Positions 25,948 through 57,029 of a stretch of DNA of 64,000 nt are shown here, piece after piece. The stretch is from Bremerella volcania (lineage in GTDB: Bacteria; Planctomycetota; Planctomycetia; Pirellulales; Pirellulaceae), in the NCBI RefSeq assembly GCF_007748115.1, contig NZ_CP036289.1, forward strand, positions 930,001 to 994,000. The letters are read 5' to 3'. The notes below the pieces were generated by a model. It was not told the DNA's origin and did no database searches. It saw only the letters and a list, made by a program, of their open reading frames with translations. The first letter of the stretch is position 1, and each line of letters opens with the position of its first letter. The translations under genes were made by a program, and so were the position numbers.

Positions 25948-26043
25948 GTCGCGCCAGGTAGCCCTGCTTGAACCAGTGCTGGGCTGCTCAACGAATTGAA
26001 AACAGAACCATCCTTTCCAATTTTGCTTAAGGCAACCAACCGT

Positions 26044-27309: not shown

Positions 27310-28034
27310 GTTCGCGCCCCAGACATTCGGTCCTCTTTACCTGTGAGCATGGCGGCAATCGGATTCCGAAGAGGTATGCCGCGCGCTTCATCGATCACCA
27401 GGAACTTCTGCAGACGCATCGGGGCTGGGACCCAGGCACGCTCCAAATGGGCACGTACTTTCATCAGCGGATTCCGTCCCAAATGTTTGCCAGCCAGACG
27501 TCACGGCTGCTGATCGACCTGAACCGATCCGAAGGGCATCCGTCTCTCTTTTCCAAGCTGGTGCCCCCGCCGGGTGATTCGCAGCGGAACGAACTGCTGG
27601 AGACTTACTACCGTCCCTGGCGACGGGAGGTGGCCGATTGGATTTCGCGCCAGGTACGTCAAAAGCAGTTTGTCTGGCATCTCTCGTTTCATAGCTTCAC
27701 CCCAGAGCTTAATGGAGAAGTGCGTACCGCCGAGATTGGTTTGTTGTACGATCCTGGACGTTTGCCGGAACGAGCTTTCTGCGATCGCTGGCGAAAGAAG
27801 ATCCGCGAGACGTTCCCCACGTTTCGCGTCCGCAGGAACTACCCCTACCGTGGCGTTGCCGACGGACACACGACCTCTTTGCGGAAGCGATTCTCCACCA
27901 ATCAATACGCCGGGATTGAATTGGAAGTCAATCAGCAGCTTTTCCTGCAACCCAGCGGTAAAGTGAAGAAGTTGATTGCCGGGCTCTATCAAAGCTGGAG
28001 TCTGGCCCTGCAGCAGACGTCAGGAGCCAAGTGA
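27306..28034 (+). CDS. N-formylglutamate amidohydrolase-family protein
   Basis: This 242-residue member of the N-formylglutamate amidohydrolase (HutG-like) family hydrolyses N-acyl amides with a bound metal. Visible motifs are FTCEHGGNRIP (11-21), HRGWDPGT, LLIDLNRSEGHP and LSFHSFTPE, which carry the expected metal-binding His/Glu residues, and GIELEVNQ near the C-terminus. There are no histidine utilisation genes around it. It overlaps the GCS2-type ligase, so its job is probably in the amidoligase pathway, removing or recycling an N-acyl group. Confidence 0.88.
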   Translation: MSSRPRHSVLFTCEHGGNRIPKRYAARFIDHQELLQTHRGWDPGTLQMGTYFHQRIPSQMFASQTSRLLIDLNRSEGHPSLFSKLVPPPGDSQRNELLETYYRPWRREVADWISRQVRQKQFVWHLSFHSFTPELNGEVRTAEIGLLYDPGRLPERAFCDRWRKKIRETFPTFRVRRNYPYRGVADGHTTSLRKRFSTNQYAGIELEVNQQLFLQPSGKVKKLIAGLYQSWSLALQQTSGAK

Positions 28035-28426: not shown

Positions 28427-29890
28427 ATGAAGAACCCACCCATCCATTGGTCGGAAGGGATGTTTCTTCGCCCCCATCATTTCCAAGCGCAGGATCGTCA
28501 CTGGTTTGAGTTCCTCGAAAACTCGATCCGTGACCTTATCCCCTACGCTTATGGGATTCGTTATATCGAAATCAGCGAGCAGGCCATCGCCAACTTTCAG
28601 ATCGAGGTCTCGCAGTGCGAAGCACGCATGCGAGATGGTTCGATCATTTCGATCGGCGGCAACGATCAGATGGACCGGATCGATCTCCGTCAGGGGATCA
28701 AAGGCTTGCAGAACCTGAAAGAGGTTTTCCTCGAGAACGAGACCATTCGTGTTTACCTGGCTGTCCCACGTATCAAATTGGGACATGAAAACACGGCCCG
28801 CGACGCTCACACGCCCAATACCCGGTACTGCGAGTTTTCTCGGGAAGATGAAGAAGAAAATCGCGGCGGCAATCCTCAAGAGGTTTCGTATCGCGAACTG
28901 AATATCCGGATCTTGCTATCCACCGATGACCTGTCCGGTTTCGAGCTTCTGCCGATCTGCCAGATTGTACGTAACGAATCGGACGGAACGCCGCGAATTG
29001 ACCCGAACTATCATCCTCCGTGTCTGGCCGTCGATGCCTGGACGCCCCTGGGGACGGGGATCGTGCGGCGCGTATTCGACCTGATCGGGGAACGCATCGA
29101 GCGTTTCCGCAACGATATTCTTAATCAGAACATTACCTGGGACCCGCGCGAGATCGGGGACCTGGAAAAGATGATGCGGCTGCGAACCTTGAACGAGGCC
29201 TACGGCGAGCTTCGTATCCTGGCGTTCAGCGATGGGATTCATCCACTGAAGGTCTATACCGCGCTGTGCCGTATTATCGGGCAGCTGGCGATCTTCGACG
29301 ACAAAGAACGCCGCATCGACAATATTCCGAAGTACGACCACGAGAACCTGGCCGAGATTTTCCAGTGGGCCTACAAAGAGATTCGCCGGCTCAGTGAAGG
29401 TCGCATCGATGCAACCTACGAGCATCGCTTCTTCCTGGGCAGCGGCCAATCGATGCACGTTCAATTAGATCCAAAATGGTTCGACCCGAGTTGGGAATGG
29501 TACATCGGATTTGAAGGGGTCAGCGTTTCCAAGGAAGACACCTATCAATTGGTCACCCAAGGTTTTCACTGGGTGTTTGGTAGCGGCGAACAGGTCGAGA
29601 CATTGTTCCGCAACAACATGCCGGGCGTCCGACTGCGACCGGTTGCTCAGCCCCCGCGCGTGTTGCCGCAGGGGGGCAACTGGGTTTACTTCCAGGTCCA
29701 ACGCCAAGGCCCACCCTGGGACGACGTCCAACGAACCCAGACGATGGGGTGGCGGTTTCAGGAAGAATACATCCACGACGTCAAAGAGCTGCAAGGCAAG
29801 AAGCGTTTGGTGTTGAACATTCGAAACCAACTGATTGCCCTGCATGTCGCCGTGTTCGCGCTGCGGCATGGCGAGCAGAAGAGAGTTTAA
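28427..29890 (+). CDS. tssK: T6SS baseplate protein TssK
   Basis: TssK links the T6SS baseplate to the membrane complex through TssL/TssM. The 487-residue protein has the diagnostic opening HWSEGMFLRPHHFQ (7-20) and the overall length of TssK (about 450). Other family stretches are IGIPYAYG-like residues (DLIPYAYGIRYIEI), PDPHYIPP-like RIDPNYHPPCL, and LRRRWDA-like LRTLNEAYGELR. It opens the first T6SS block, with tssL after a 220-bp gap that contains an inverted-repeat element. It fits the cytoplasmic trimer that contacts the short membrane proteins encoded next. Confidence 0.95.
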   Translation: MKNPPIHWSEGMFLRPHHFQAQDRHWFEFLENSIRDLIPYAYGIRYIEISEQAIANFQIEVSQCEARMRDGSIISIGGNDQMDRIDLRQGIKGLQNLKEVFLENETIRVYLAVPRIKLGHENTARDAHTPNTRYCEFSREDEEENRGGNPQEVSYRELNIRILLSTDDLSGFELLPICQIVRNESDGTPRIDPNYHPPCLAVDAWTPLGTGIVRRVFDLIGERIERFRNDILNQNITWDPREIGDLEKMMRLRTLNEAYGELRILAFSDGIHPLKVYTALCRIIGQLAIFDDKERRIDNIPKYDHENLAEIFQWAYKEIRRLSEGRIDATYEHRFFLGSGQSMHVQLDPKWFDPSWEWYIGFEGVSVSKEDTYQLVTQGFHWVFGSGEQVETLFRNNMPGVRLRPVAQPPRVLPQGGNWVYFQVQRQGPPWDDVQRTQTMGWRFQEEYIHDVKELQGKKRLVLNIRNQLIALHVAVFALRHGEQKRV

Positions 29891-30111: not shown

Positions 30112-30753
30112 ATGACTCCCAAGTTTGCGAAAGCGGTTGATCCCATTTTTCTGTGCGTCCTGGATCTGTTGGATCGGATTGAACGGGATGGGAACTCGTT
30201 GGATCCAAGCCAGGAGCGTATTCGCGTGAAGAAACGAATCGATACGGCTGAGAATCTGTTGGGCCAGACGGCTGAATGGGAACTTGCCAAGTACGCCCTG
30301 GTTGGCTGGATCGATCAGATGCTGATCACCGCTCCCTGGAACGGAGCCAACTGGTGGCAAAATAACGACTTGGAATTTGAATGCTTCCACAGCGGTAAGG
30401 CGTTCGAGCATTTCTTTGTGGCGGCCAAGGAAGCTCAAAGCTTGCCCAACAAGGACGCGTTGGAAGTTTACTACGTGTGCGTGGTGCTCGGCTTTCGAGG
30501 TCTCTATGGTCACCCGCACTCGTTGCAGTACACGCAGCACTACGGCCTGCCGGCTGACCTGGATACCTGGGCGAAGCAGACGGCTTCGGCCTTGCAGCTA
30601 GCGATCGGTCGTAGCCCGATCATGGACCGCCCTGAACCTGGCGAAGGGGCGCCCCCGCTGACCGGCTACAACAAACTGATCAACATGTCGCTGTTTGCGG
30701 TCATTATGGTCGCGATTTGCGTCGGCTACTTTTTGATGTTTGGAATGAAATAA
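30112..30753 (+). CDS. tssL: T6SS membrane protein TssL (DotU), short form
   Basis: TssL is an inner-membrane protein of the T6SS core complex. This 213-residue form has the DotU cytoplasmic domain (YALVGWIDQMLITAPWNGANWW at 61-82, then LEVYYVCVVLGFRGLYG at 117-133) and ends in a single C-terminal membrane span (about 190-210) with almost no periplasmic tail. There is no OmpA/peptidoglycan-binding extension. It sits between tssK and the half-length tssM, with repeats on each side. The usual TssK-TssL-TssM contacts are expected. Confidence 0.93.
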   Translation: MTPKFAKAVDPIFLCVLDLLDRIERDGNSLDPSQERIRVKKRIDTAENLLGQTAEWELAKYALVGWIDQMLITAPWNGANWWQNNDLEFECFHSGKAFEHFFVAAKEAQSLPNKDALEVYYVCVVLGFRGLYGHPHSLQYTQHYGLPADLDTWAKQTASALQLAIGRSPIMDRPEPGEGAPPLTGYNKLINMSLFAVIMVAICVGYFLMFGMK

Positions 30754-30875: not shown

Positions 30876-32570
30876 ATGATGGCATTCGTTTACCAACTGG
30901 TTTACTACGTTACGCTGCCGTTCACCGCGTTTAACACGCTGGCGACGAACATCCCCGGCATACGTAGTCTCGGGAAAATTACGCTTCCCACGCGAATTGC
31001 GTTGTTGGTGTTCGTCTTCCTGTTCTTCGTGTTGGTGTCGTTTTGCATAACCTTCCAGTTCTCGGACACCTCTGCCCAGTGGACCGACTACCTACTGGAC
31101 TGGAAGACAGGCCTCACGGTATTCGCGCTGATGATCGTCATCCCGATTGTCTCGTATTATGTCGTGAAGATCTGGATGGAAGAGGACTCGTCGGAATATC
31201 CCGATATCGATAAGGCCTGGAAGCAGGGTCTCACGGAACTCGATAAGCATGGGATTCCTCTGGGGAGCACGCCGCTGTTCCTGGTAATCGGGAACCCGGA
31301 CGATCGCCGGGCGAGCAATTTGATGCGGGCCTCCGGCTTCGGCTTTAACGTTTCCGACCCGGCCCAGGGGCCAGCCGCTTTGCACTGGTATGCCAATCCC
31401 GACGCGATCTTCGTTTTCCTGACGGGTACGTCCTGCTTGTCGACGTTGACAGACGGCTACAAGAACCATGCGAGCAGGCATTCGCAACTGGCCACGCCTT
31501 CCCCGCAGCAAATTCCCGGGGGACAAACGATCATCGCCGGTGCAGGCCAACAGAGCTTGATCAACGAGCAACTCGACCACACCTTAGGGGCTGACGAAGA
31601 CGAAGACGAGCAGCGCTTCATGGAAGCTCCTTCCAGCATGCAGCCCGGTGTCGGAGCGACCATGGATTTCGGCCAAGGGATGTCCGGGGGACAAACGATG
31701 AACTTCGGCGCCGAAGATGCCGCCAAGGCCGTATCGATGTCGAAAGCAGGCATGCGTCAATCCAAGTCTGACTTGACCGATCAGATGGAACGCTTGAAGT
31801 ACGTCTGCAAGCTCATCAACAAGGCCCGTCGTCCGGTCTGTCCGATCAATGGCCTGTTGGTCACCATTCCGTTCGACATGATCGAAGACTCCAGCGAACC
31901 GATCCAACTAGCCGTCCAAAGCGACCTGGAAGTGATCCGTTCGACGACCCGCCTGCGATGCGCCGTAACGGCACTGATTACCGAAATGGAAAGCGCCCAA
32001 GGCTTCCTGGAACTCATCCGACGAGTCGGCGAAAAGCGAGCCAAAGAGCAGCGTTTCGGCAAGGGGTTCAACGTCTGGAATCCGCCAATTGCCGAGCAGT
32101 TGGAAGCGGTCTCGCAGCATGCCACCGGCGCGTTCGAGGACTGGACGTATCTTCTGTTCCGCGAGAAGGATGGTCTGCGTCGGCCAGGTAATCCGAAGCT
32201 GTTTGAACTGTTGTGCAAGATTCGCGGCAAGTTCAGCGAGTGCATGACCAATATCATCGCCAATTCGTTTGGCTTCGAACCGGACAAGAATCCCCGCGCG
32301 GCAGGCAACTCGCTGTTGTTTGCCGGCTGCTATTTCGCGGCGACCGGTGACACCGGAGACCGCCAGGCGTTCGTGCGTAGCGTGCTGTACAAGGTGATGG
32401 AGCAAGACGCCGAACTCGACTGGAACAAGGAAGCTCTGGAAGAAAACACAGGCGCCGAATTCGCTGCCAACCTCGCGGCACTGATCGGGGGCGTTTGTCT
32501 GTTGATTCTGATCGGCTTCGGCTTGAATTCCGCGTTCGGCGAGTACATGCCGTGGCATCAGGACCAATAA
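30876..32570 (+). CDS. tssM: Half-length TssM/IcmF-like protein without periplasmic domain
   Basis: Canonical TssM (about 1100-1200 residues) has two N-terminal spans, a cytoplasmic NTPase-like domain, a third span and a large periplasmic part that binds TssJ. This 564-residue protein has spans at about 41-62 and 79-99, a cytoplasmic domain (100-530) and a third span at about 534-552, then stops after roughly 12 residues. The whole periplasmic domain is missing. Where Walker A would be, the sequence is VIGNPDDRRASN (137-148), so nucleotide binding looks lost. A Gly/Gln/Met-rich acidic insert (about 205-290) is unusual. IcmF homology is supported by the KYVCKLINKARRPVCPINGLLVTIPFDMIE stretch (in pieces) and by position next to tssK-tssL. 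The call as TssM is strong from context, moderate from sequence. Confidence 0.8.
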   Translation: MMAFVYQLVYYVTLPFTAFNTLATNIPGIRSLGKITLPTRIALLVFVFLFFVLVSFCITFQFSDTSAQWTDYLLDWKTGLTVFALMIVIPIVSYYVVKIWMEEDSSEYPDIDKAWKQGLTELDKHGIPLGSTPLFLVIGNPDDRRASNLMRASGFGFNVSDPAQGPAALHWYANPDAIFVFLTGTSCLSTLTDGYKNHASRHSQLATPSPQQIPGGQTIIAGAGQQSLINEQLDHTLGADEDEDEQRFMEAPSSMQPGVGATMDFGQGMSGGQTMNFGAEDAAKAVSMSKAGMRQSKSDLTDQMERLKYVCKLINKARRPVCPINGLLVTIPFDMIEDSSEPIQLAVQSDLEVIRSTTRLRCAVTALITEMESAQGFLELIRRVGEKRAKEQRFGKGFNVWNPPIAEQLEAVSQHATGAFEDWTYLLFREKDGLRRPGNPKLFELLCKIRGKFSECMTNIIANSFGFEPDKNPRAAGNSLLFAGCYFAATGDTGDRQAFVRSVLYKVMEQDAELDWNKEALEENTGAEFAANLAALIGGVCLLILIGFGLNSAFGEYMPWHQDQ

Positions 32571-32671: not shown

Positions 32672-33022
32672 ATGCATGCCGCTGCCAAACTTCTCTCGCT
32701 CTGTTTGCTTTCGTTAGGACTTCTCGTTGCCACGCAGTCTGGCTGTGGTGCTCCGGCGGACGAGCCGCTGGGGCCGGAAGAGATTCGTCTGAAGATCACC
32801 GGCGCCGATACCGACGCGGCCCGTGACGCGATCCAAACCGAACTGGAAAACCTCTCGGATCTACCGGGTAACCATAACACGTCGATGCGCTGGGCCTCGG
32901 GGCAGCCGCTGACGATCAAGTTCGGGCCGGTGGCCGACCCACAGAAGTTTGCCGACAAGGTGAAGTTCGGTAAAGTCGACAAAATCGAAGACCGGACTGT
33001 ATTCATTACCTATACGAACTAG
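32672..33022 (+). CDS. Small lipoprotein, paralogue 1 (after tssM)
   Basis: The 116-residue protein has a lipoprotein signal ending in the lipobox SGC (Cys25) and a compact mature domain with the pattern I-x-L-K-I-T-G near 40 and V-x-F-G-K-V-x-K-I-E-D-R-T-V near the end, suggesting a beta-alpha-beta fold. The next gene is a paralogue. It follows the half-length tssM by 101 bp. A role as a TssJ-like outer-membrane anchor for the T6SS is possible from the position, but there is no sequence similarity to TssJ that I can see. Confidence 0.72.
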   Translation: MHAAAKLLSLCLLSLGLLVATQSGCGAPADEPLGPEEIRLKITGADTDAARDAIQTELENLSDLPGNHNTSMRWASGQPLTIKFGPVADPQKFADKVKFGKVDKIEDRTVFITYTN

Positions 33023-33073: not shown

Positions 33074-33496
33074 ATGTCCATTCAACGTTGCTTACTGATT
33101 GTCGGCCTACTCGTCTTGCCAATTCTCACGTCGCTGGGGTGCTCAGGCGAGAATATGGTGACCCTGAAAATCTCAGGAACGAGCACGAGCGAAGAACGTG
33201 AAAAGATCTCGGAGAAGGCCAAGTCCCTCACCGATGGCAGCAGCAACTACATCACCAGCTATCACATGAACAACACCTACACGGTGAACGTCGGCCCGGT
33301 GACGGACGTCGAGGCATTCGTTCAGCAAATCGACTTCGGTAAGGTCACCAAGGTGGAAGAGCGAACCATCTACGTCGACTTGGACGCCGAGCCTGACGCC
33401 GAAGAGCCAGCCGCGACAGATCCTACGACGACCGATCCGGCGCCGATGGAAACCAAGCCGATGGAAGAAACGCCAATGGAAACGTCGAGCGAGTAA
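33074..33496 (+). CDS. Small lipoprotein, paralogue 2
   Basis: This 140-residue lipoprotein has a lipobox LGC (Cys23) and a mature domain sharing L-K-I-S-G-T, V-x-V-G-P-V-T-D and I-D-F-G-K-V-T-K-V-E-E-R-T-I with the previous gene, so the two are tandem duplicates. It carries an extra acidic Pro/Thr/Met-rich C-terminal tail of about 35 residues (repeated METKPMEETPMET-like units). I chose the ATG at 33074, which begins the signal peptide. The function is unknown. Confidence 0.72.
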   Translation: MSIQRCLLIVGLLVLPILTSLGCSGENMVTLKISGTSTSEEREKISEKAKSLTDGSSNYITSYHMNNTYTVNVGPVTDVEAFVQQIDFGKVTKVEERTIYVDLDAEPDAEEPAATDPTTTDPAPMETKPMEETPMETSSE

Positions 33497-40322: not shown

Positions 40323-40350
40323 TTGGAATGGTTTTGCTGGCTGGTATACT
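40323..40350 (+). promoter_or_regulatory. Probable promoter of the sigma-factor operon
   Basis: TTGGAA (40323-40328) and TATACT (40345-40350) have a 16-bp spacer. A similar TTGAAG-N16-TATACT precedes tssA, so both may use the housekeeping sigma factor. Confidence 0.5.
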
Positions 40351-40454
40351 CACCAAAGGTGGAGCGTTCAGGCGATGGGGGTTGCCTGAGCAAAATGGCT
40401 CCTCGTGCGGTCGTGGTGAAATCCACGGTCCGACCTAAAACCAAGGGGGGAAGT

Positions 40455-40805: not shown

Positions 40806-40808
40806 GCC

Positions 40809-41495
40809 ATGACTGCGGAAGCGACCCAACTCGAGCAACGCATTCAAGAGAACCAGGGACTGGTTATTTCCCTGGCCAAGTCGATCCATCGGAAGCTGCC
40901 TCCGCAGATTGGCATGGACGATCTGATCGCTTATGGACAGCTTGGGCTTGCCGAGGCGGCCCAGTCTTTTGAGGACGACAAAGGCGCGAGCTTTTCGACG
41001 TTCGCTTACTATCGCATCCGTGGCGCTATCTACGACGGCATCTCGAAGATGAGTTGGAACTCTCACGCCGCCAGGATGCAGAATAAGTATCAGCAAATGG
41101 CCGCCGATACGCTGCAAACCGATGCCGCAGCCGGCAGCACGTCGACCGCTTCGGCCCAGGAAAACGCGAAATGGCTGGGCAATCTGACCGAAAAGCTCGC
41201 GGTTGTGTATTTGGCCAGCCATGGGGAAGAAACCCAGCACGCGTTCCAGGCCGTCGCCGACGCGCGCACGCAGCAGCCAGCCGAGCAGTTAGAAAACAAA
41301 GAGATTCAAGCCCTGCTGCAGAAGCTGCTCCAGACGTTGGCTCCCCACGAGCAGCAGTTAATTCGGATGACCTATTACGAGGGTTACAGTCTGAAAGAAG
41401 CTGCCGACCAGCTAGGTAAAAGCAAGTCGTGGGCCAGCCGTCTGCATCAAGCCATTTTGGAGCGACTGGCCAGGGCTTTGCGTCAGACGACTTAG
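40809..41495 (+). CDS. FliA/SigB-like alternative sigma factor
   Basis: This 228-residue sigma-70-family protein has regions 2, 3 and 4: DDLIAYGQLGLAEAAQSFEDDKGASFSTFAYYRIRGAIYDGI (region 2, about 37-78, in pieces), a variable middle part, and the region 4 helix-turn-helix MTYYEGYSLKEAADQLGKSKSWASRLHQ (about 188-215). The layout fits group 3 factors such as FliA and SigB/F. It precedes the tssA-clpV operon by about 200 bp, with its own promoter and a small partner gene upstream. It may control the T6SS, a surface structure or stress genes; no target promoter is proved here. Confidence 0.9.
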   Translation: MTAEATQLEQRIQENQGLVISLAKSIHRKLPPQIGMDDLIAYGQLGLAEAAQSFEDDKGASFSTFAYYRIRGAIYDGISKMSWNSHAARMQNKYQQMAADTLQTDAAAGSTSTASAQENAKWLGNLTEKLAVVYLASHGEETQHAFQAVADARTQQPAEQLENKEIQALLQKLLQTLAPHEQQLIRMTYYEGYSLKEAADQLGKSKSWASRLHQAILERLARALRQTT

Positions 41496-41702: not shown

Positions 41703-42836
41703 ATGGCATTTCCACAAGTACTTGATATCGAGTCGCTGACCAATCCGATCTCGGAGGAAAACCCGAGCGGCGTGGAGCTTCGCGGCTCTGAGCATGCCAA
41801 CGAGTTTTTCGATCTCCGCGAGATCTTCAACCAGTCGAACAAGGCCGAGCGAGATATCCAGACGGCCATGGCATTTCCGGACGAGGAATTCCCAGACCTG
41901 AAGGATCCAGAATGGGATGAAGTCCGAGATCGCGCTATTCATATCCTGACCAGCTATTCCAAGGACGTCTCGGTTGCTTCCTGGTTGATTGAGGCCGTCA
42001 TGCGGATGGACGGCATTCCCGGCCTGCGGGATGGCTTCAAGTTGATGCTCGAGCTTTGTCGCCGTTACTGGGACAACATTCACCCAGAACCGGACGAAGA
42101 TGAAGGTTACGCCGAGACGGTCTCGCAGTTGACGGGCCTAACCAGCGATCGCTCGTACGGCGTACTCGACAATCTTCCGCTGACCAACGGCGGAGGGGGG
42201 ACCTACTCCCTCTTTGATTTCAACGAGGCCAACCGCATCGAGGGAATGGATGCCGACGACAAGCAGCGACGAATCGCGGAAGGAGCGATTGAACGCCATA
42301 CCTTCGACGACTCGTTTCGCGCGACTTCTCGGGAACATTGGAACAACGTCGTCGAAGATCTCGACACCTTAATCGAAACGATTCGCGAGTTGGGAACCTA
42401 CCTGGACGAGCGATGCCTGCGGAATTCTTACGGGGAAGATACCGCTCCGTCGATGACTTCGTTTCGCCAACGACTTGAGTCGATTCGCTCGACGGTTCAG
42501 CAACTGATGTCGGAATTGCTGCTGGACGAGGTCGGAGAGACGCCTGTCGAAGATGGTGATGAAGGAGAAGCAGTAGGCACGGCCGTTCAGCAAAAGGGAC
42601 CTGCCGGAGCGATCCAAAGTCGAGCCGACGCGATCAAGCTGATCCGCAAGGCGGCGGAGTATTTCCGTAAGACCGAACCGCAGTCGTTTATTTATTTCAA
42701 ATTGGAACAAGCAGCCAAATGGGCCGAAATGCCCTTTCCAGAACTGCTCAAAGAGCTACTTCGAGACGACACCGCAATGGGCGAATTGCATCGTCGAACG
42801 GGGATTCCAATACCCGAGGACGAAAGTGGATATTAA
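41703..42836 (+). CDS. tssA: T6SS baseplate/tail protein TssA (ImpA)
   Basis: TssA organises baseplate and tail assembly. This 377-residue protein carries the ImpA N-terminal domain (INPISEENPSGVELR-like opening, then DWDEVRDRAIHILTSYSKDVSVASWLIEAVMRMDGIPGLRDGF in pieces, and the conserved YWDNIHPEPDED). The C-terminal part is acidic and ends with RTGIPIPEDE, a common ending in short TssA forms. It opens the second T6SS block, with its own promoter. The ATG at 41703 has no strong upstream ribosome-binding site. Confidence 0.93.
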   Translation: MAFPQVLDIESLTNPISEENPSGVELRGSEHANEFFDLREIFNQSNKAERDIQTAMAFPDEEFPDLKDPEWDEVRDRAIHILTSYSKDVSVASWLIEAVMRMDGIPGLRDGFKLMLELCRRYWDNIHPEPDEDEGYAETVSQLTGLTSDRSYGVLDNLPLTNGGGGTYSLFDFNEANRIEGMDADDKQRRIAEGAIERHTFDDSFRATSREHWNNVVEDLDTLIETIRELGTYLDERCLRNSYGEDTAPSMTSFRQRLESIRSTVQQLMSELLLDEVGETPVEDGDEGEAVGTAVQQKGPAGAIQSRADAIKLIRKAAEYFRKTEPQSFIYFKLEQAAKWAEMPFPELLKELLRDDTAMGELHRRTGIPIPEDESGY

Positions 42837-43009: not shown

Positions 43010-43537
43010 ATGGCTGAAAGTTATCAAAAGAGGCTCAACCGCGTCCGCAAACCCCGCGTCCACATTACATACGACGTGGAAACGGGCGACGCGATGGAAA
43101 AGAAAGAGCTTCCGTTCGTCGTGGGTGTCATGGGGGATTTCTCTGGCAACCCAGCAGAGAAACTGGAACCGCTCAAAGAACGTAAGTTCGTCCAGATCGA
43201 TCGCGACAACATCGACGACGTGATGAAACGGTTTCGTCCCGAACTGAACTTGCGGGTTGACAACACGCTGGCCGACGATGGCTCGCAGATGGCCGTCAAC
43301 TTGAAGTTCGAATCGATGGACGATTTCAGTCCAGCCAGCGTTGCCAAGCAAGTCGAGCCACTTAAGAAACTGCTCGCCACGCGCGATAACCTTCGCGACC
43401 TGCTGACCAAGATCGATCGTAGCGACGATCTGGAAACGCTGCTTGAGCAGGTAATGAACGATGCAGATCAACTTAAGAAGTTGGCTGGCGAACTGGGCGT
43501 AAGTGAATCGGGTGATGCCGACAAGGGGGATAGCTAA
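43010..43537 (+). CDS. tssB: T6SS sheath small subunit TssB
   Basis: TssB and TssC form the contractile sheath. This 175-residue protein has the TssB core [31 protein letters not shown] in pieces (about 17-46), [23 protein letters not shown] (about 58-80) and the C-terminal [28 protein letters not shown], which interacts with TssC. The length is normal. GAGGGG precedes the ATG. It ends 2 bp before tssC, typical of the paired sheath genes. Confidence 0.95.
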
Positions 43538-43539
43538 TT

Positions 43540-45033
43540 ATGAGTGCAGGCGAACAACAATCCGCCCAATCGGCGGCACAAAACGAAGAGGCTACCAGTC
43601 TGCTGGATGCCGCGATCACCGCGACCAAGCAGACCGAACAGCCGCGAGCCAAGGAATTGATTCAGACCCTGGTTCAAGAGGCCATGAAGGGGACGGTCAC
43701 CTTCGATAAAGACATCATTCGTACGATCAACCAAGGGATCGCGGCGATTGACGAGGCCGTGTCGAAACAACTAGCAGCCGTGATGCATCATCCTGAATTC
43801 CAGAAATTGGAAGGCAGTTGGCGCGGCTTGCACTACCTGGTCAGCAACAGCGAAACGGGCGAAATGCTCAAGCTTCGCGTGCTCAACGCCTCGAAGAAGG
43901 ACATCTCGAAGGACCTGGAACGTGCCGTCGAATTCGACCAGAGCACGCTCTTCAAGAAGGTTTACGAGAGCGAATTCGGCCTGGCGGGCGGTACGCCTTA
44001 CGGCGCGCTGATCGGCAACTACGAATGGGACAACACCCCAGACGACATCGCCGCTCTGGAAAAGATGTCCGGCGTAGCCGCCTCGGCGTTCGCTCCTTTC
44101 TTGACGGCTCCGAGTGCGAAGTTCTTCGGTTTCGACGACTGGGAAGAACTTTCCAAGCCGCGCGACTTGGCGAAGATCTTCGATTCGCAAGAGTACATCA
44201 AGTGGAACTCGTTCCGTCAGTCGGAAGATTCCCGCTTCGTGACGATGTGCATGCCGCGCACCTTGGCTCGTTTGCCTTACGGTGCCGCGACCAAGCCGAT
44301 CGAAGAATTCAACTACGAAGAAGTGGAAACGGGTCCTGGCGGTCAGCCGATCGAAGTCGATCACGGCGAGTACTGCTGGATGAACACGGCATTCGTGATG
44401 GGTGCCAAGTTGACCGACGCATTCGCCAAGACCGGCTGGTGCACTGCCATCCGTGGTGTCGAAAACGGCGGTAAGGTCGAAGGCCTGCCGGTTCACGTCT
44501 TCAAGAGCAGCGACGGCGACTCAGGCGTCAAGTGTCCGACTGAAGTGGCGATTACCGATCGTCGTGAAGCGGAATTGAGCAAGCTCGGTTTCCTCTCGCT
44601 TTGCCACTTTAAGGATACCGACTACTCGGTTTTCTTCGGTGGTCAAACGACTCAAAGGCCGAAGCAGTACCACGATCCCGATGCGACGGCCAATGCCGAA
44701 ATTTCGGCTCGCTTGCCGTACATCATGGCATCGTCTCGCTTCGCCCATTACCTGAAGGTGATCGCTCGCGACAAGATCGGTTCGTTCATGGAACGAGACG
44801 ATTGCGAACGCTGGCTGAACGACTGGATTCACAACTACGTTTGTGCGGACGAACACCCCAGTGCCGAAGTCAAAGCTCGTTTGCCGCTGGCCCAGGCACG
44901 TGTGGAAGTCACCGAAACGCCCGGCAAGCCCGGTTCGTACAACGCGGTGGCTTACCTGCGACCTTGGCTGCAAATGGAAGAACTGACCGCCTCGCTCCGC
45001 ATGGTGGCATCGATTCCGCAGAAAGCTGGTTAG
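43540..45033 (+). CDS. tssC: T6SS sheath large subunit TssC
   Basis: The 497-residue protein is a standard Tss[41 protein letters not shown] (about 90-128, in pieces), then [12 protein letters not shown], a hydrophobic sheath-core stretch, [18 protein letters not shown] and the late [21 protein letters not shown]. It is translationally coupled to tssB. A second TssC homologue follows (impD), after an intrinsic terminator. The pair TssB/TssC should assemble the contractile sheath recycled by ClpV at 51095. Confidence 0.96.
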
Positions 45034-45059: not shown

Positions 45060-45100
45060 AGAGGCACATTGGGGAGCCGCTCCTCTGTGCCTCTTTTTTT
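45060..45100 (+). terminator. Intrinsic terminator between tssC and impD
   Basis: AGAGGCACA (45060-45068) pairs with TGTGCCTCT (45086-45094), a perfect 9-bp stem with a 17-nt loop, followed by a run of T (to 45100). It lies inside the operon, 27 bp after tssC and 25 bp before impD. It probably lowers expression of the downstream genes relative to the sheath genes. Confidence 0.8.
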
Positions 45101-45125
45101 ACCCTCTTCTCTGCGCGATGATGCA

Positions 45126-46718
45126 ATGAGTGCCGAGTTTCAGTCGCAACCCGAAGAGTACGCCGAGGCGCCTGCCGAGCAGGCATTGCCCCTCGAAGAA
45201 ACGAGCGCGCCAAGCGAGGACGCTTATTCCGGCTCGATCTTAGATTGGATTGTTTCCAACGAGAACGTCCAGCAGTCGAATCGGGCAGCCCATCGCTGGG
45301 ACGAATTCATGAACGCCGAATCCGTTCGTGAAAAGCTGGTTGCGTGGCTGGGCAAGATTGATGGACTCTCGAAGAAGTCGCTCGTGCTCCGTTTGAATGC
45401 GGACGTCGCACAAATCGATCAGTGGCTTACCGATCAACTCAATGCCATCTTGCATCATCCAAAGTTTCAAAAGCTGGAAGCTTCCTGGCGCGGCCTGCAA
45501 TACTTGACCGACATGGTTGACGACGAGGCCGATCGCGAACGCGTCATGATTCGTGTACTCAACGCGAGTTGGAAGGATGTCGAACGCGACATTGAACGGG
45601 CCGTCGAGTTCGATTCAAGCGAGTTGTTCAAAAAGATCTACGAGGAAGAATTCGGAACCGCCGGCGGCAAGCCGTTTGGCGTGATGATTGGGGACTACGA
45701 GATTCACCCTAATCCGACCAAGAATCATCCTCACCGCGACCTGGACACGCTGCAAGGGCTCGCAGGTATTGCTGCTGCGGCGTTTTGTCCCTTTATTGCC
45801 GGGGCCAGTCCCACGATGTTCGGCCTGGACGAGTTTACGGGGCTCGAGCACGTCGAGAACTTGCGTTCGGGGTTCGATCAGGCGGAATTCACGCAGTGGC
45901 ACGCATTTCGCAAAACGGAAGATGCTCGATTCGTCGGCCTGGTCATGCCGCGCGTTTTGATGCGTTTGCCTTACGAAACCTTCGATGCCAGGGCCGACGG
46001 GTTTAGTTTTCGAGAGGAAGTCGGCGGTCGTGATCGTCGCAAGTACCTCTGGGGGAATGCGTCGTACGCGTTTGCGGAAGTCCTGATTCGCGCTTTCTCG
46101 GAGTGTGGTTGGCTGGCTCAAATCCGCGGCGTCCAGCGCAATGTCGTGGGGGGCGGGCTCGTGAGTCGACTGGCCGTTCATCACTTCAGTACCGATCGAC
46201 ACGGGGTTGCTCCCAAGTCTTCCACGGACTGTATTATCTCGGATCGGCAAGAAGCGGAACTGGCACATTTGGGGTTCATTCCTCTCACGCGGTGTCACGA
46301 TACGGAGTTGAGCGCGTTTTACTCGAATCAAACGGTGCAAAAGCCCAAGGTTTACGAAGACGAGGCGGCCACGCAAAACGCGAAGATTTCCGCCATGCTG
46401 CAGTACATCTTATGTACCAGCCAGTTCGCCCATGCATTGAAGGTGATTGCCCGGGACAAGGTTGGTACCTTCGAGGATCGCGATGCGGTCGAGCGATTCT
46501 TGAACGACTGGATTCACGAATACGTTACGCCAGATGAAAAGGCCAAGCCGGCAACCAAGGCCGCGCGACCGCTGCGTCAGGCAGAAATCCGCTTGCGAGA
46601 CGACCCTGGCAAGCCGGGTTCGTATCACTGTACCTTTAAACTTTGGCCGCATTATCAACTGGATGACCTGGTCGCATCGATTCGCATGAAGACCAATATC
46701 GAAGGTCGCCGACAATAA
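45126..46718 (+). CDS. impD: Second TssC-like sheath protein (ImpD)
   Basis: The 530-residue paralogue of TssC keeps the main TssC landmarks (LEASWRGLQYLTDMVDDEAD, VMIRVLNASWKDVERDIERAVEFD in pieces, RLPYETFDARADGFSFREE, LSAFYSNQTVQKPKVY) but has an extra acidic N-terminal segment of about 35 residues, starting with MSAEFQSQPEEYAEA. In the rhizobial imp locus the same position is held by ImpD, the TssC2 form. The role of the second large subunit is unsettled; it may form the baseplate-proximal sheath end or a distinct cap. I chose the ATG at 45126; an upstream frame to 45069 overlaps the terminator. Confidence 0.92.
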   Translation: MSAEFQSQPEEYAEAPAEQALPLEETSAPSEDAYSGSILDWIVSNENVQQSNRAAHRWDEFMNAESVREKLVAWLGKIDGLSKKSLVLRLNADVAQIDQWLTDQLNAILHHPKFQKLEASWRGLQYLTDMVDDEADRERVMIRVLNASWKDVERDIERAVEFDSSELFKKIYEEEFGTAGGKPFGVMIGDYEIHPNPTKNHPHRDLDTLQGLAGIAAAAFCPFIAGASPTMFGLDEFTGLEHVENLRSGFDQAEFTQWHAFRKTEDARFVGLVMPRVLMRLPYETFDARADGFSFREEVGGRDRRKYLWGNASYAFAEVLIRAFSECGWLAQIRGVQRNVVGGGLVSRLAVHHFSTDRHGVAPKSSTDCIISDRQEAELAHLGFIPLTRCHDTELSAFYSNQTVQKPKVYEDEAATQNAKISAMLQYILCTSQFAHALKVIARDKVGTFEDRDAVERFLNDWIHEYVTPDEKAKPATKAARPLRQAEIRLRDDPGKPGSYHCTFKLWPHYQLDDLVASIRMKTNIEGRRQ

Positions 46719-46763
46719 GCTTACAATCCAACATTGGCTGAGAATCAACTTCGGGGGGAGCAC

Positions 46764-47558
46764 ATGAGCATCGGCGAACAACTGAAAGCGGGGCAACTGA
46801 ATGAAGCCATCGAGGCGGCTATTCAGGATGTCAAGAAGAAGCCCATGCAGTGGGACTTGCGAATCGCGCTGGCCCAACTGCTATGTTTGCGAGGGGATCT
46901 CGAGCGAGCCGATAACCACCTGGAAACGGCTCAGATTCAGTCTCCCGATGCGATCCTTCGCATCTCAATGTATCGGCAGATGATCCGGGGCGAGATGACC
47001 CGCAACGAATGCTGGGAGCAAGGACGCACGCCTGACCTGATGCAGAATCAAGAGCCGTCTCCTCTGATCGAGAAGAATTTGCGGCTGATTCTCGCGCTGC
47101 GAGAAAAGAACATGGAAGAGGCTTCGACGCTGGTCGACGAAATCGAAGAGGAACGTCCGATCGTGAAGGGAAAGTGCGACGGCGTCGAATTTGAAGACAT
47201 CCGGGACCAGGACGATCGCACCGCGTTCTTCCTGGAAACGATCACCAGTAATGGCAAGTATTTCTGGATTCCTTTCGAAGCGATCGATTCGGTTGAGTTT
47301 CATGCTCCTGAGCAGCCGTGCGATTTGATCTGGCGGCGGGCAACGATGAACGCCTATGGTCAGGAAGGGGACGTCTTCATCAACGCTCTTTACCCGGGCA
47401 GTTCCCAAAGTGAAGAGATGACGCACAAGTTGGGACAAAGCACAACCTGGCTTGGAGAAGAAGGTGAACCGGGACGCGGCCTCGGCCAGCGAATGCTCTG
47501 GCTGGGTGAGGATGAGAAGTCGATTATGGAAATCGGCATGTTGGAATTGACCCACTAA
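46764..47558 (+). CDS. impE: T6SS accessory protein TagJ (ImpE)
   Basis: The 264-residue ImpE-family protein has TPR-like helices at the start (LKAGQLNEAIEAAIQDVKKKP, then LRGDLERADNHLETAQ) and the ImpE C-terminal part with WIPFEAIDSVEFHAPEQPCDLIWRRA. TagJ binds the sheath (TssB) and ClpV in some T6SSs. It lies between impD and tssE, as in the imp locus. GGGGGGAG precedes the ATG at 46764, so I rejected the upstream in-frame start. A WLGEDEKSIMEIG-like tail resembles the family. Confidence 0.92.
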   Translation: MSIGEQLKAGQLNEAIEAAIQDVKKKPMQWDLRIALAQLLCLRGDLERADNHLETAQIQSPDAILRISMYRQMIRGEMTRNECWEQGRTPDLMQNQEPSPLIEKNLRLILALREKNMEEASTLVDEIEEERPIVKGKCDGVEFEDIRDQDDRTAFFLETITSNGKYFWIPFEAIDSVEFHAPEQPCDLIWRRATMNAYGQEGDVFINALYPGSSQSEEMTHKLGQSTTWLGEEGEPGRGLGQRMLWLGEDEKSIMEIGMLELTH

Positions 47559-47582: not shown

Positions 47583-48080
47583 ATGTCCAAAGGGAATCCG
47601 GATGAAGAACCACTCATGCCGTCGGTGTTTGACCGACTGATTGACAACGAGCCGTTCAATTCGCGCGAGACGCCCCATTCGCAAACGCAGACCATGCGGG
47701 AAATCCGTGAGTCGGTCATGCGCGACCTGGAAAATCTGTTGAATACGCGTTGGCGCTGCAAGTCATGGCCGCCGCAGCTCAACGAACTGAATAATTCGCT
47801 GATCAACTACGGGATTCCCGATTTCTCATCCATCGACCTGAGTTCGGACATGGATCGCGATTCGCTCCGCGAGGCGATTGAATTCGCGATCCGTACGTTT
47901 GAGACTCGCTTTGTTTCGGTGCGTGTCGAGATTCCCGAGAAGAGTAGGTCGGAAGACCGGACTCTGCACTTCATCATCCGGGCCGAACTCCATGCGACGC
48001 CGGCCCCCGAACCGATTGTGTTTGATTCGAAGCTGGAGCCATCGGATCATCTATTTCATGTCAGACGGAAAGATCGATGA
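47583..48080 (+). CDS. tssE: T6SS baseplate protein TssE (gp25-like)
   Basis: The 165-residue protein carries the gp25-like/lysozyme-like domain of TssE (about 35-145), with the conserved MREIRESVMRDLENLLNTR, INYGIPDF and FETRFVSVRVEI. It forms part of the baseplate wedge. Its last 4 bp overlap tssF (48077), so the two are translationally coupled. It has a good ribosome-binding site (GGGAGG) just before the ATG. Confidence 0.94.
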   Translation: MSKGNPDEEPLMPSVFDRLIDNEPFNSRETPHSQTQTMREIRESVMRDLENLLNTRWRCKSWPPQLNELNNSLINYGIPDFSSIDLSSDMDRDSLREAIEFAIRTFETRFVSVRVEIPEKSRSEDRTLHFIIRAELHATPAPEPIVFDSKLEPSDHLFHVRRKDR

Positions 48081-49909
48081 GCGACGAACTGCTCGAGTTT
48101 TACCGCCGCGAACGCGCCTACCTGTTGGATCAGGGCAAAGCGTTTGCTCGTGCCAACCCCAAGATTGCCAGTCGTTTGGGCCTTGGTGGTGACGACTTTA
48201 AAGATCCGCACGTTGGCCGCCTGGTCGAGTCGTTTGCTTATCTCAACGCACGGACGCGTCTCAAGCTGGAAGACGATTTTCCCGAGATTGCCGCGTCAAT
48301 GCTGGAGGTTCTCTTCCCGCATTTGCTGCGGCCGATCCCCTCGATGTCCGTTGTCCAGTTCGGACTGGATCGAGCTCAGGTCGAAGCGGTGAATGGCTTT
48401 CAGGTGGTCCAAGGAACCAGTCTCGAGACCGAGCAGATCGACGGAGACCCGTGCCGCTTTCGGACTTGCTATCCGGTTACCTGTTGGCCGATCGAAGTCA
48501 GCGAAGTCAGCATGATGAGTCATCCGTTCGAGGCACCGCAGACTCCGTACAATGCGGAAGCCTCCGCGATGATCCGCATCGGCTTGAAGAGCTTCACTTC
48601 GACGATCGATCTGAGCCAATTGAAACTGAAGACGCTTCGGTTTTTTATCAAAGAGCAAGCCCCCTACAAATTCGACCTGTATGAAATGTTGATGACGTCG
48701 GTCGTCGGTGTCGCGGTGGCTCAGCATCATAAGTCGGCCGAATTTCAAATGCTCGGTCGCAACTGCATTCAGCCAGTCGGTTTCCATCGGGAAGAAGGGA
48801 TGTTCGACTACCCGGCCCGCTCGTTCCTGGGATATCGCCTACTGACGGAGTTCTTTACCTTTCCTGACAAGTTCCTGTTTTTCGATCTGAATCTGGAATC
48901 CGCCTTAAAGAGGATCCCCGGCGAACAGGCAGAGATTTACATCTTCTTGAAACGAGGGAACTCCGACCTGGAACGTCGCCTGCATGTCGACAACCTGCGG
49001 ATCGGGTGTACGCCGATCACCAATCTGTATCGGCAAGAGGCCGAGCCGATTCGGCTGACGCACGAGAAGACCGAGTACCACGTGATCCCAGACTCGCGGC
49101 GGCCGTTTGCCAACGAAATCTATTCGATTGACGAGGTCACCGCCGTATCGCAGGATCATCGCGAGGTCAGTTACCATCCGTTTTATTCGTTCAAGCACTC
49201 GTCCGAATCGCACGATGCCGAAACGTACTGGCACGCGGTTCGGCGGCCGAATCCTGGCGGCGAAGAATCAGGGGACGAAGGAACCGAGTTATTCCTGTCG
49301 GTGGTCGATCTGAACTTCACTCCCAGCGCCGAGCAGCAATGGAGCTTGCACGCGGACTTGACCTGCTTCAATCGGGATCTTCCTGAGCGACTTCCGTTTG
49401 GCGGCGATCAGCCCAAGTTGAGCATGTCAGGCTTGGCCCCCATTACCAAGATCAAGTGCCTGCTGCCTCCGACGCCGACACGTCGTCCGGACGTCGAGCA
49501 GGGGATTCGGTGGCGTTTGATTTCCCATCTGTCTCTGAACCATCTGTCGCTCAGTGATGACGCGGAAGGTTCGCACGCATTGCGAGAGATCCTGGGCTTA
49601 TACGATTACGTCGATTCCGGGGTGAGCCGGGCATTCATCGAGGGAATCTCGTCGCTACGAAGCGAGCCCTGCACGGCGCGCGTGAAGACGCCCAATGGTA
49701 CCGTGTTCTGCCGCGGTACGCGCCTGCACGTCACGTTTGACTCCAGTAGTTACACCGGTGGCGGTATGTTTTTGATGGCGAGCGTGCTCGAGCGATTTTT
49801 CGCCCTGTATTGCACGATCAATTCATTCACCCAGACGGTCATGCATGACGAGACCGGAGAGGAGATCTACCGTTGGGCACCGAGGGCCGGCGAAAACGTG
49901 CTACTGTAG
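48077..49909 (+). CDS. tssF: T6SS baseplate protein TssF
   Basis: The 610-residue TssF is a wedge component of the baseplate. The opening DELLEFYRRERAYLLDQGKAFARANPKIASRLGL and DPHVGRLVESFAYLNARTRLKLEDDFPE (in pieces) are typical, as is the late GGGMFLMASVLERFFALYCTINSFTQ. The length matches the family (about 590-620). It is coupled to tssE at the start and overlaps tssG by 37 bp at the end. Confidence 0.95.
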   Translation: MSDELLEFYRRERAYLLDQGKAFARANPKIASRLGLGGDDFKDPHVGRLVESFAYLNARTRLKLEDDFPEIAASMLEVLFPHLLRPIPSMSVVQFGLDRAQVEAVNGFQVVQGTSLETEQIDGDPCRFRTCYPVTCWPIEVSEVSMMSHPFEAPQTPYNAEASAMIRIGLKSFTSTIDLSQLKLKTLRFFIKEQAPYKFDLYEMLMTSVVGVAVAQHHKSAEFQMLGRNCIQPVGFHREEGMFDYPARSFLGYRLLTEFFTFPDKFLFFDLNLESALKRIPGEQAEIYIFLKRGNSDLERRLHVDNLRIGCTPITNLYRQEAEPIRLTHEKTEYHVIPDSRRPFANEIYSIDEVTAVSQDHREVSYHPFYSFKHSSESHDAETYWHAVRRPNPGGEESGDEGTELFLSVVDLNFTPSAEQQWSLHADLTCFNRDLPERLPFGGDQPKLSMSGLAPITKIKCLLPPTPTRRPDVEQGIRWRLISHLSLNHLSLSDDAEGSHALREILGLYDYVDSGVSRAFIEGISSLRSEPCTARVKTPNGTVFCRGTRLHVTFDSSSYTGGGMFLMASVLERFFALYCTINSFTQTVMHDETGEEIYRWAPRAGENVLL

Positions 49910-51012
49910 CCAGTCGCCTGATCGAACAGCCGTACCAGTTCGACTTTTTCCAGGCCATGCGGCTACTGGAGAAGATGGCTCAGGAAGATCCTGAAGCGTT
50001 CCCGAATTGGAAGCCGATTGGGCAAGACGGGCCACCGCATCGCGAGTTGGTCCAACTGAAGGTTCTGTGCGCGCGGACTTTTCCGCCGAGCGAGGTCACG
50101 TCGATTGTTCGTCGCCGTCCCGATGCCGAAGATGCACCACCAGAAGGGGAACCTCCCTTCACGATGACGACGACCTTCATGGGGGTTTTCGGTGCCCAAG
50201 GGGTGATGCCGCTGCACTACACGCAGACCATTCTTGATCGCGTCCGTCGCAAAGATTACGCCCTGCGCGACTTTATCGATCTCTTTCACCATCGGATTTT
50301 GTCGTTCTTCTATCGGGCCTGGGAAAAGTATCGCTTTCCCATTGCTTTTGAAAGAGCTCGGCGAAATACACCCAAGCCGAAAGATCTCGATCTATTCACC
50401 GAGACGTTGTACGCACTGGTGGGGATGGGGACCGACGGCATCCGAGATCGCCTGCTGATCGACGATGAAACGTTCCTGTACTACGCCGGCCACTTCGCGC
50501 ACCGTCCGCGTTCGGCGCTCGGGCTTCAGCAGATCCTGGAAGATTACTTCTCCTTTGACGTCGTTGTGCAGCAATACACAGGCCACTGGTTGTATATCGA
50601 TCCGGCCGATCAATCTCGCTTGCCCGACTCGGCGGGGATGCTTGGTGGAAACAATCGGCTTGGTGAAGAGACCGTCATCGGGCATCGTATGTGGAACTGC
50701 GAAACGCGGTTTCGGCTGCGGATCGGTCCGGTCGATTATCGGCAGTACCAGCGACTGATGCCCAGCGGCGATCAACTCGGCGAGGTTGCTCAACTGACGC
50801 GGACCTACGTCGGGAATTCATTGGATTTTGATATGCAACTGGTGTTAAAAAATTCAGAGGTTCCCCAGTGCATCCTCGGGAGTGAGGAAGACCCATGTTT
50901 TTTGGGGTATAACATGTGGCTGCGAGTTGGCGAATTCGTCAACGATGTGGAAGATGCCGTATTCCAGCACTCGGGGTATCCGCTGGGATCGACCCAGGCA
51001 TCAGCGAAGTAG
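49873..51012 (+). CDS. tssG: T6SS baseplate protein TssG
   Basis: TssG completes the TssE-TssF-TssG wedge. This 379-residue protein has the typical beginning LIEQPYQFDFFQAMRLLE, then TFMGVFGAQGVMPLHYT and the late LGLQQILEDYFSFDVVVQQYTGHW, all diagnostic for TssG. It starts with a TTG at 49873 inside tssF (37-bp overlap); no better in-frame start precedes the conserved region. A start this deep in the previous gene points to translational coupling. Confidence 0.93.
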   Translation: MGTEGRRKRATVASRLIEQPYQFDFFQAMRLLEKMAQEDPEAFPNWKPIGQDGPPHRELVQLKVLCARTFPPSEVTSIVRRRPDAEDAPPEGEPPFTMTTTFMGVFGAQGVMPLHYTQTILDRVRRKDYALRDFIDLFHHRILSFFYRAWEKYRFPIAFERARRNTPKPKDLDLFTETLYALVGMGTDGIRDRLLIDDETFLYYAGHFAHRPRSALGLQQILEDYFSFDVVVQQYTGHWLYIDPADQSRLPDSAGMLGGNNRLGEETVIGHRMWNCETRFRLRIGPVDYRQYQRLMPSGDQLGEVAQLTRTYVGNSLDFDMQLVLKNSEVPQCILGSEEDPCFLGYNMWLRVGEFVNDVEDAVFQHSGYPLGSTQASAK

Positions 51013-51094: not shown

Positions 51095-53791
<2,697 letters not shown>

Positions 53792-53866: not shown

Positions 53867-54061
53867 ATGGACCTTTTGTCAGGTTTAACTCGTCAAATCG
53901 GGGGACTTGCGCGCTTTGCGTTTATAGTGAAATCTCGTTTGCCTCAGTTGGTGACAGGTCGGGACTGAAAAGCATTTGCCGCGACAGGTCCATTTTCTGA
54001 TAATTCAGGTTTGATCCTTTCTCGGGAAGAGCGGCTAGAGAACAAGCGTTCCACGCGAACC

Positions 54062-56092: not shown

Positions 56093-56132
56093 TAATTCTT
56101 TTTGTCTGCAAGTTCATAAACGAGATTGATTG

Positions 56133-57017: not shown

Positions 57018-57029
57018 GGGCTTGATTCT

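Follow-up and report, generated by a model that had tools for sequence, protein, structure and literature searches.

The window analysed here, a stretch of 64,000 nucleotides from the planctomycete Bremerella volcania (NCBI RefSeq assembly GCF_007748115.1, contig NZ_CP036289.1, positions 930,001 to 994,000), contains a type VI secretion system (T6SS) gene cluster whose tssM gene encodes only 564 amino acids (aa). Judged by its sequence, this protein is the membrane and cytoplasmic half of TssM; what is missing is the periplasmic domain, which is held to form the channel of the T6SS together with TssJ. In the genomes surveyed this truncation is a trait of one planctomycete class, and the T6SS with the short TssM are associated with giant proteins, mostly of 1450–1900 aa, that have one N-terminal membrane span and fall into two paralogous clades, A and B. 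We consider it fairly probable that this class has a rebuilt T6SS membrane complex, in which the giants, together with a lipoprotein, form the trans-envelope conduit on a base of TssL and short TssM. If this is true, the T6SS contains two modules that can be separated, a hub in the inner membrane and a channel through the periplasm.

A TssM protein that ends after its third membrane span

A profile search against the ImcF/TssM families, suggested in a preliminary description of this DNA, gave a match to PF14331 (IcmF-related_N) with 36.8 bits at residues 308–398 (cut-off 25). No other Pfam family, PF06761 (the TssM periplasmic domain) included, exceeded its cut-off in the 564 aa protein, and the NCBIfam scan yielded no model above cut-off. 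The preliminary description had reported a three-span TssM-like protein that then stops, and this is confirmed, but the third span lies at about residues 529–547 and not at 534–552; the other two are at about 41–59 and 79–97, with the cytoplasmic domain in between (spans were called with a hydropathy window and not with a dedicated predictor). A tail of 17 residues after the third span forms the C-terminal end, in agreement with the claim that the periplasmic domain is lacking. In a profile-profile comparison, residues 102–553 align with the membrane and cytoplasmic half of 11 long TssM, through span 3 (probability 99.6, E 8.5e-24), and a sequence search of the PDB with this protein returned chance matches only.

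Many TssM proteins, though not all, contain a Walker A motif. In the short TssM the glycine G139 is kept at this position and GK[ST] is absent, which is the case in all 37 family members aligned and bears out the earlier remark that the motif is degenerate.

The source genome consists of one contig of 6,496,182 bases. PF14331 exceeds its cut-off there only in the tssM gene of the window, with one further match of 12.1 bits, and PF06761 has no match, the E. coli control being positive. We therefore rejected a second TssM elsewhere in this genome, and the protein stands, as had been claimed, as the only one found. Since relatives up to 96% identical end at the same place, the gene contains no homopolymer of six or more nucleotides and the periplasmic profile has no matches in the family, the short TssM does not look like the product of a frameshift, transcriptional slippage or pseudogene formation; these origins were rejected, in line with the earlier statement that this is no simple frameshift. 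It might also be possible that the short TssM is a degraded or accessory copy in a dying system, as the missing periplasmic domain and Walker A motif could suggest. We regard this as extremely improbable: no other TssM was found in the genome, every homologue examined has the same end point, the genes for tail, baseplate, ClpV-like protein, Hcp and VgrG are open frames, and 12 columns, including the start methionine and the first Walker A glycine, are invariant over the 37 family members.

The truncation as a trait of one class

A search with the 564 aa protein gave a short-TssM match in 61 of the 149 genomes of the family, which we infer to be the Pirellulaceae within the class Planctomycetia. 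The family alignment comprises 37 distinct sequences from fetched loci; all of them end 0–17 residues past the last span, at total lengths of 534–762 aa. The preliminary description had looked to related loci that continue into a periplasmic domain as a sign of degradation, and none was found: in 60 of 60 loci from named genomes the frame ends 0–53 residues past the last span, in 57 of them within 17, the longer tails being those of L082 and L105 (53 residues each) and L084 (29 residues). These genomes include Rhodopirellula baltica BR-MGV (with two loci), Stieleria, Aporhodopirellula, Aquisphaera and a metagenome-assembled genome (MAG) of Gemmatales. The motif GxxxxGK[ST] occurs in none of the 60 frames, several of which are C-terminal pieces that are unable to show it.

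Two loci have a short TssM that is split further (L093, 5995–6603 and 9209–10774; L095, 6209–6817 and 9161–10978); here a divergent gene of its own, 202 aa in length, encodes the N-terminal part with its two spans, and another open reading frame (ORF) encodes the remainder. Short TssM were also seen in MAGs labelled Alphaproteobacteria (L111) and Kuenenia stuttgartiensis (L112), perhaps by mis-binning or transfer.

The sheath family PF18945 (TssC) was likewise found in 61 of the 149 family genomes, together with short TssM in 58; TssM without TssC was found in G063, G066 and G119, and TssC without TssM in G050, G084 and G138. PF06761 occurs in a single family genome, G020 (L053), with 288 bits and alongside the genome's own short TssM. 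This genome is 88% complete and fragmented into 440 contigs, and its PF06761-type TssM is therefore put down to acquisition or contamination. A profile of the periplasmic half of long TssM matched none of the 149 genomes (the set contains no positive control, and the profile recovers its own members), and this half matched no ORF in the class loci compared.

A survey of 392 genomes of the phylum showed TssC in 82, of which 16 belong to the class of the window and 66 do not. All 16 class genomes have a short TssM (open frames of 542–611 aa) and none has PF06761, whereas the 37 genomes with PF06761 (36 over cut-off, 35 TssC-positive) all lie outside the class. Thirteen further TssC-positive genomes outside the class have a TssM-profile match in frames of 1276–1683 aa, and 18 of the 66 have neither PF06761 nor a TssM-profile match; the TssC-negative G427 (663 aa) and G386 (756 aa, E 7.9e-4), also outside the class, match in shorter frames. 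The 16 long TssM listed from outside the class are 1129–1606 aa long and all carry Walker A. Fifteen of them have a called third span, which begins at residue 419–605 and has 674–1094 residues after it; the remaining one (L153) was omitted from the half-by-half comparison. One fetched long-TssM stretch (L162) was unmatched by the short profile, and Walker A was not read there. Since full-length TssM with Walker A are found in other classes of the phylum, the truncation is, on these sequences, a trait of one class. The short form recurs at T6SS loci in family and class, and the different way of crossing the planctomycete envelope that had been suggested is still the best reading, but not one for the whole phylum.

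The part common to short and long TssM was used for a maximum-likelihood tree of 63 sequences with four long TssM as the root; it groups the 47 short TssM together, at 82% ultrafast bootstrap. Parsimony then points to a loss of the periplasmic half and Walker A within the class, and probably to a single loss, with weak support from the tree. A large clade that includes R. baltica has thus lost the channel domain and kept the rest, while other classes kept the domain. Such a class-specific loss would be a natural experiment on the purpose of the channel, and it leaves a short list of testable replacement genes.

Giant proteins accompany the short TssM

In many relatives a gene for a protein of about 1600 aa with one N-terminal span adjoins tssK or tssM. 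The source genome has two such giants, in a cassette with the order giant A, lipoprotein, giant B, hcp and vgrG; Hcp (163 aa; PF05638, 103 bits) and VgrG (860 aa; PF05954, 257 bits) follow directly after giant B. The cassette sits about 15–30 kb beyond the end of the window and was hence invisible to the preliminary description. Together with the cluster in the window, the T6SSi tail and baseplate set is found in the source genome in full (tssA, B, C, E, F, G, H and K plus Hcp and VgrG).

Among the 149 family genomes, 64 have TssM or TssC, and a profile search found a giant-type frame in 61 of these. In 56 of these 61 the frame is at least 1400 aa long; the other five (G063, G082, G084, G089 and G120) have shorter pieces only, and these genomes consist of 760–1270 contigs. 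Of the six genomes of the window's genus, all but G140 contain TssM, TssC and giants; G140 is without all three. A giant and a T6SS gene share a contig in 49 family genomes, with match starts at most 15 kb apart in 31 and at most 65 kb apart in 39; the shortest distance among the 13 single-contig family genomes is 4 kb. The searches scored few candidates per genome, mostly three in the family and at most seven elsewhere in the phylum. A query with a single giant found nothing in the source genome, a false negative, since the wider profile finds two giants there; the first giant profile likewise missed the giants in L163, where clade-specific profiles recover one (L193). One of the T6SS-positive family genomes, G138, in which neither a short TssM nor a giant was found, has an open frame of 1523 aa with a VipB_2 match (G138:C1:1596711).

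In the class outside the family, all eight T6SS-positive genomes have giant frames, of 1600–1912 aa. The giant match lies 35–261 bases from the tssM match in seven of them, and G436 has a giant on either side of tssM. Because the matches in G284 and G341 are weak (2.6e-9 and 9.4e-8), six of the eight regions were read directly (G235 and G436 are not among them). In all six a giant B of 1653–1777 aa with DxSxS and a giant-profile match follows directly after tssM on the same strand. Directly before tssM, L190 and L191 have a clade-A-type giant and L192 has a frame of 1640 aa with a weak match (4.9e-11); in L188, L189 and L193 a long frame before tssM is cut by the end of the stretch and unmatched by the giant profile.

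Outside the class, a full-span giant was found in none of the 66 T6SS-positive genomes, with at most seven candidates scored in each; 39 match the giant profile locally (positions 28–381 or 1279–1519) in frames of up to 1416 aa, and 27 do not match. Among the T6SS-negative family genomes with a giant-profile match, the places are listed for 12, where the match covers profile positions 40–350 only, in frames of 651–1163 aa; the absence of full-length giants from T6SS-negative genomes refers to these 12 of 33.

Two clades with different domains

A midpoint-rooted tree of 46 giants shows the two clades, and all eight loci with two giants hold one of each (the second giant of L181, cut by the end of its stretch, was omitted from the tree). 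The first five giants scanned showed no Pfam family above cut-off. In clade B, VWA_2 was found in all 13 sequences scanned of 15 (E up to 0.01), the DxSxS metal-site motif is present in 13 of 13 clade-B giants as well as in the six class giants read outside the family, and the vWA domain has a PDB profile match to BatB (3.5e-9). Clade A is less uniform: CarboxypepD_reg was found in 9 of 21 sequences scanned and Ig-like families in a few, the C-termini are often Ig/CnaB-like, and the R. baltica giant of this clade has a weak PKD match (E 0.0073, below cut-off). Both clades have an N-terminal domain in common. Its resemblance to degenerate caspase-like domains (Peptidase_C14) is confined to a motif; Pfam and PDB gave no support for a caspase fold, a PDB sequence search with the domain returned chance matches only, and the expected caspase cysteine position is not conserved.

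In 45 of the 46 giants the hydropathy scan gave one N-terminal span, and no span was called after residue 200, with a second early hydropathy peak in the giants of L059 and L178. Charge favours a cytosolic N-terminus in 39 of the 45. Ahead of the span, a tryptophan is present in 19 of 21 clade-A sequences and forms an invariant column in 13 clade-B sequences.

The giants might be cargo effectors of the T6SS or surface adhesins that travel with hcp and vgrG, in which case the true conduit would be an undetected protein. Their size and their position next to hcp and vgrG are compatible with this, as are the Ig/CnaB-like C-termini in part of clade A, which are typical of surface proteins. However, the giants carry an N-terminal anchor span, and a hypervariable C-terminal tip is absent (in 200-residue blocks, compared in four small groups, identity is even along the whole length, including the C-terminus). 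In addition, the A/B pairing in eight of eight two-giant loci and the position of giant B directly after tssM in six of six class loci outside the family speak against it. We therefore consider a cargo or adhesin role rather unlikely.

A further explanation, gene fission, would be that the periplasmic half of TssM persists as a separate, strongly diverged gene, perhaps the giant itself. Giants do accompany the short TssM, full-span giants were not seen together with long TssM, and further splitting does occur, as in L093 and L095, where the N-terminal half stands alone. Yet both kinds of TssM periplasmic half, compared with the giants, reached a profile-profile probability of only about 0.1%, and the profile of the long-TssM periplasmic half has no match in the family. 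The giants were thus rejected as a diverged periplasmic half, and fission in any form seems very unlikely to us.

A proposed trans-envelope complex

In the model that we favour, TssL and short TssM would form a hub in the inner membrane on which the TssK baseplate docks, as expected from homology. The giants A and B would be anchored by their N-terminal span, with the conserved tryptophan in the cytosolic tail, and would project about 1400–1840 residues into the periplasm, where they could meet the lipoprotein at the outer membrane. Giants and lipoprotein might then form a cage or conduit for the exit of the Hcp tube and the VgrG spike and so take the place of TssJ and of the periplasmic domain of TssM. 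In giant B, the vWA domain with its intact DxSxS may make a regulated contact, and the N-terminal domain common to both giants may be structural. Co-occurrence, synteny, topology and analogy point to giants and lipoprotein as the periplasmic and outer-membrane part. Whether this conduit of two paralogous giants and a lipoprotein evolved independently, on a base of TssL and short TssM that is free of the NTPase motif and with only the periplasmic half swapped, we judge to be evenly balanced.

The lipoprotein of 407 aa has BLAST relatives in 17 other loci, including at least three pairs with the same or a near-identical region. The order giant, lipoprotein, giant is found in the source genome and in L176, L177, L178, L181 and L182, and a lipoprotein-like gene follows tssM in L043, L070 and L086.

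Several observations weigh against this model. Three T6SS-positive family genomes (G066, G119 and G138) gave no giant in the profile search, and in 7 of the 13 single-contig family genomes the nearest giant is 0.49–3.4 Mb from tssM or tssC. Conversely, the giant profile also has matches in 33 family genomes that are T6SS-negative, and full-length giants are possible there since the places of 21 of these matches are unlisted; divergent giants could have been missed because few first-look candidates were scored per genome. The matches in G284 and G341 are weak, as described above, and profile comparison shows no similarity between the giants and the periplasmic half of TssM, of either kind. The single origin of the short TssM depends on the node with 82% bootstrap, and neither long group is monophyletic. 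The lipobox pattern flags only 12 of the 20 frames of the lipoprotein family (source included; iterative search), the HEAT match of the lipoprotein has 20.6 bits, below the Pfam cut-off of 23.5, and its family is known from the loci compared only.

Possibly, the system is anchored in the inner membrane only: short TssM and TssL would hold the tail, the spike would cross without a dedicated channel, and the giants would serve adhesion, sensing or something else. This would agree with the absence of PF06761 from 148 and of the long-TssM periplasmic profile from all 149 family genomes, and a T6SSiv without TssJML has been reported (PMC10433429). On the other hand, giants are present in nearly all T6SS-positive family genomes (61 of 64), they adjoin tssM, tssK or hcp/vgrG, and loci with two giants hold one A and one B. 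We regard anchoring in the inner membrane alone as improbable.

Comparison with known systems

The canonical T6SSi of the enteroaggregative E. coli (EAEC) type, with its TssJ-TssL-TssM complex, has in common with the system described here TssL, a three-span cytoplasmic TssM half beside tssK, and the genes for baseplate, sheath, ClpV-like protein, Hcp and VgrG. It differs in that TssM here stops at span 3 without Walker A and is accompanied by giants A and B and the lipoprotein. Surveys that demand full-length TssM or TssJ are predicted to misjudge planctomycete systems.

The T6SSiii of Bacteroidota has TssNQOPR; its single-span inner-membrane proteins with periplasmic domains, among them TssP with PKD-like domains, and its vWA lipoprotein, TssR, are needed for T6SS function (PMC10781749). 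The arrangement proposed here would be similar in the way it works; however, T6SSiii is without TssL and TssM (PMC10781749), whereas both remain here, TssM in shortened form. In addition, vWA is part of a lipoprotein there and of a membrane-anchored giant here, and TssR with 790 residues is shorter than the giants. With TssL and short TssM present, the system is not one in which TssNQOPR replace them; no search for TssNQOPR homologues was made. TagP of the Pseudomonas putida K1-T6SS is likewise derived from TssM and lacks the usual C-terminal domain in the periplasm, but it carries a peptidoglycan-binding domain (PMC10433429), where the window protein has only its short tail. In Citrobacter rodentium a tssM gene that stops early gives the short form TssM1[1-807], but transcriptional slippage also yields a full-length form (PMC4256274), and here no downstream periplasmic sequence was found. 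The T6SSiv of Amoebophilus likewise works without the canonical trans-envelope complex, but it is without TssJML and ClpV (PMC10433429), and the system described here has TssL, short TssM and a ClpV-like protein.

The T6SS of R. baltica has been on record since 2009 (PMC2660368) and was mentioned again later (PMC5394234), and T6SS were reported in freshwater planctomycetes (PMC6461901); in the parts seen of three further papers the phylum is only named (PMC11385963, PMC9113992, PMC13373197). We found no description of a truncated planctomycete TssM or of giant partners in the literature, as judged by titles, abstract starts and passages and with subscription journals mostly uncovered. Giants and lipoprotein as a passage through the planctomycete envelope may thus be undescribed.

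The T6SS gene cluster and its surroundings

Features of the T6SS cluster in the window and of the giant cassette in the source genome (window positions unless marked as contig positions)
Feature	Position	Strand	Size	Evidence
tssK (baseplate subunit)	28427..29890	+		PF05936 249 bits; TIGR03353 268 bits, cut-off 100
tssL / DotU-like	30112..30753	+	213 aa	PF09850 84 bits, cut-off 27; TIGR03349 59.7, below cut-off 89.95
truncated tssM	30876..32570	+	564 aa	PF14331, hydropathy scan, profile-profile comparison
small putative lipoprotein 1	32672..33022	+	116 aa	frame and lipobox-like SGC; paralogue of lipoprotein 2
small putative lipoprotein 2	33074..33496	+	140 aa	paralogue of lipoprotein 1
ECF-type sigma factor	40809..41495	+		PF04542/PF04545; homologue in 23/71 loci
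tssA	41703..42836	+		PF06812 94 bits
tssB (sheath)	43010..43537	+		PF05591 214 bits
tssC, first copy (sheath)	43540..45033	+		PF05943 435 bits, PF18945 156 bits
tssC, second copy	45069..46718	+		PF05943 396 bits, PF18945 135 bits
ImpE-like protein	46734..47558	+		PF07024 115 bits
tssE (gp25-like baseplate)	47583..48080	+		PF04965 72 bits
tssF	48077..49909	+		PF05947 721 bits
tssG	49873..51012	+		PF06996 339 bits
tssH / ClpV-like AAA+	51095..53791	+		PF07724 195 bits, ClpB D2
giant A	contig 1019129-1023940	-	1603 aa	giant profile
lipoprotein	contig 1017598-1018821	-	407 aa	between giants A and B
giant B	contig 1012036-1017339	-	1767 aa	giant profile

The TssJ family was absent from the Pfam scans of 40 window ORFs, and none of the genomes was searched with a TssJ profile. 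The two small lipoproteins encoded after tssM were considered as TssJ substitutes; among the loci compared they occur only in the window's genus and are therefore no general answer. The outer-membrane efflux (OEP) gene (37717–39993, minus strand) and the cassette of GAF-HlyD, HlyD and M50-HlyD genes (54011–59246, plus strand) that flank the T6SS are not favoured as a conduit either, with homologues in 10 (OEP), 6, 4 and 5 of 71 loci.

In several relatives the extracytoplasmic function (ECF) sigma factor gene sits between tssM and tssA. It is preceded in the window by a gene of 160 aa (both within 40323–41495), and in several relatives a gene of about 120–160 aa likewise stands ahead of the sigma factor gene and behind tssM, which hints at a regulator dedicated to the T6SS. 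The two TssC genes are complete tandem paralogues; the second copy recurs in many relatives, and the two might possibly build a mixed sheath.

Near the giants, the source genome encodes FHA proteins and a protein of 518 aa with VipA-like and VipB-like parts (24 and 107 bits; L175 14472–16028, contig 1028472–1030028). The latter has no VipB_2 match, and its nearest relative among the loci compared is an ORF of 650 aa in L181. Between the T6SS cluster and the giants (contig 990596–1006860) lie a frame of 3532 aa and a protein kinase of 1821 aa with WD40 propellers. Shortly before tssK, at 24484–28034 of the window, tandem ATP-grasp, glutamate-cysteine-ligase-like and N-formylglutamate-amidohydrolase-like genes are located.

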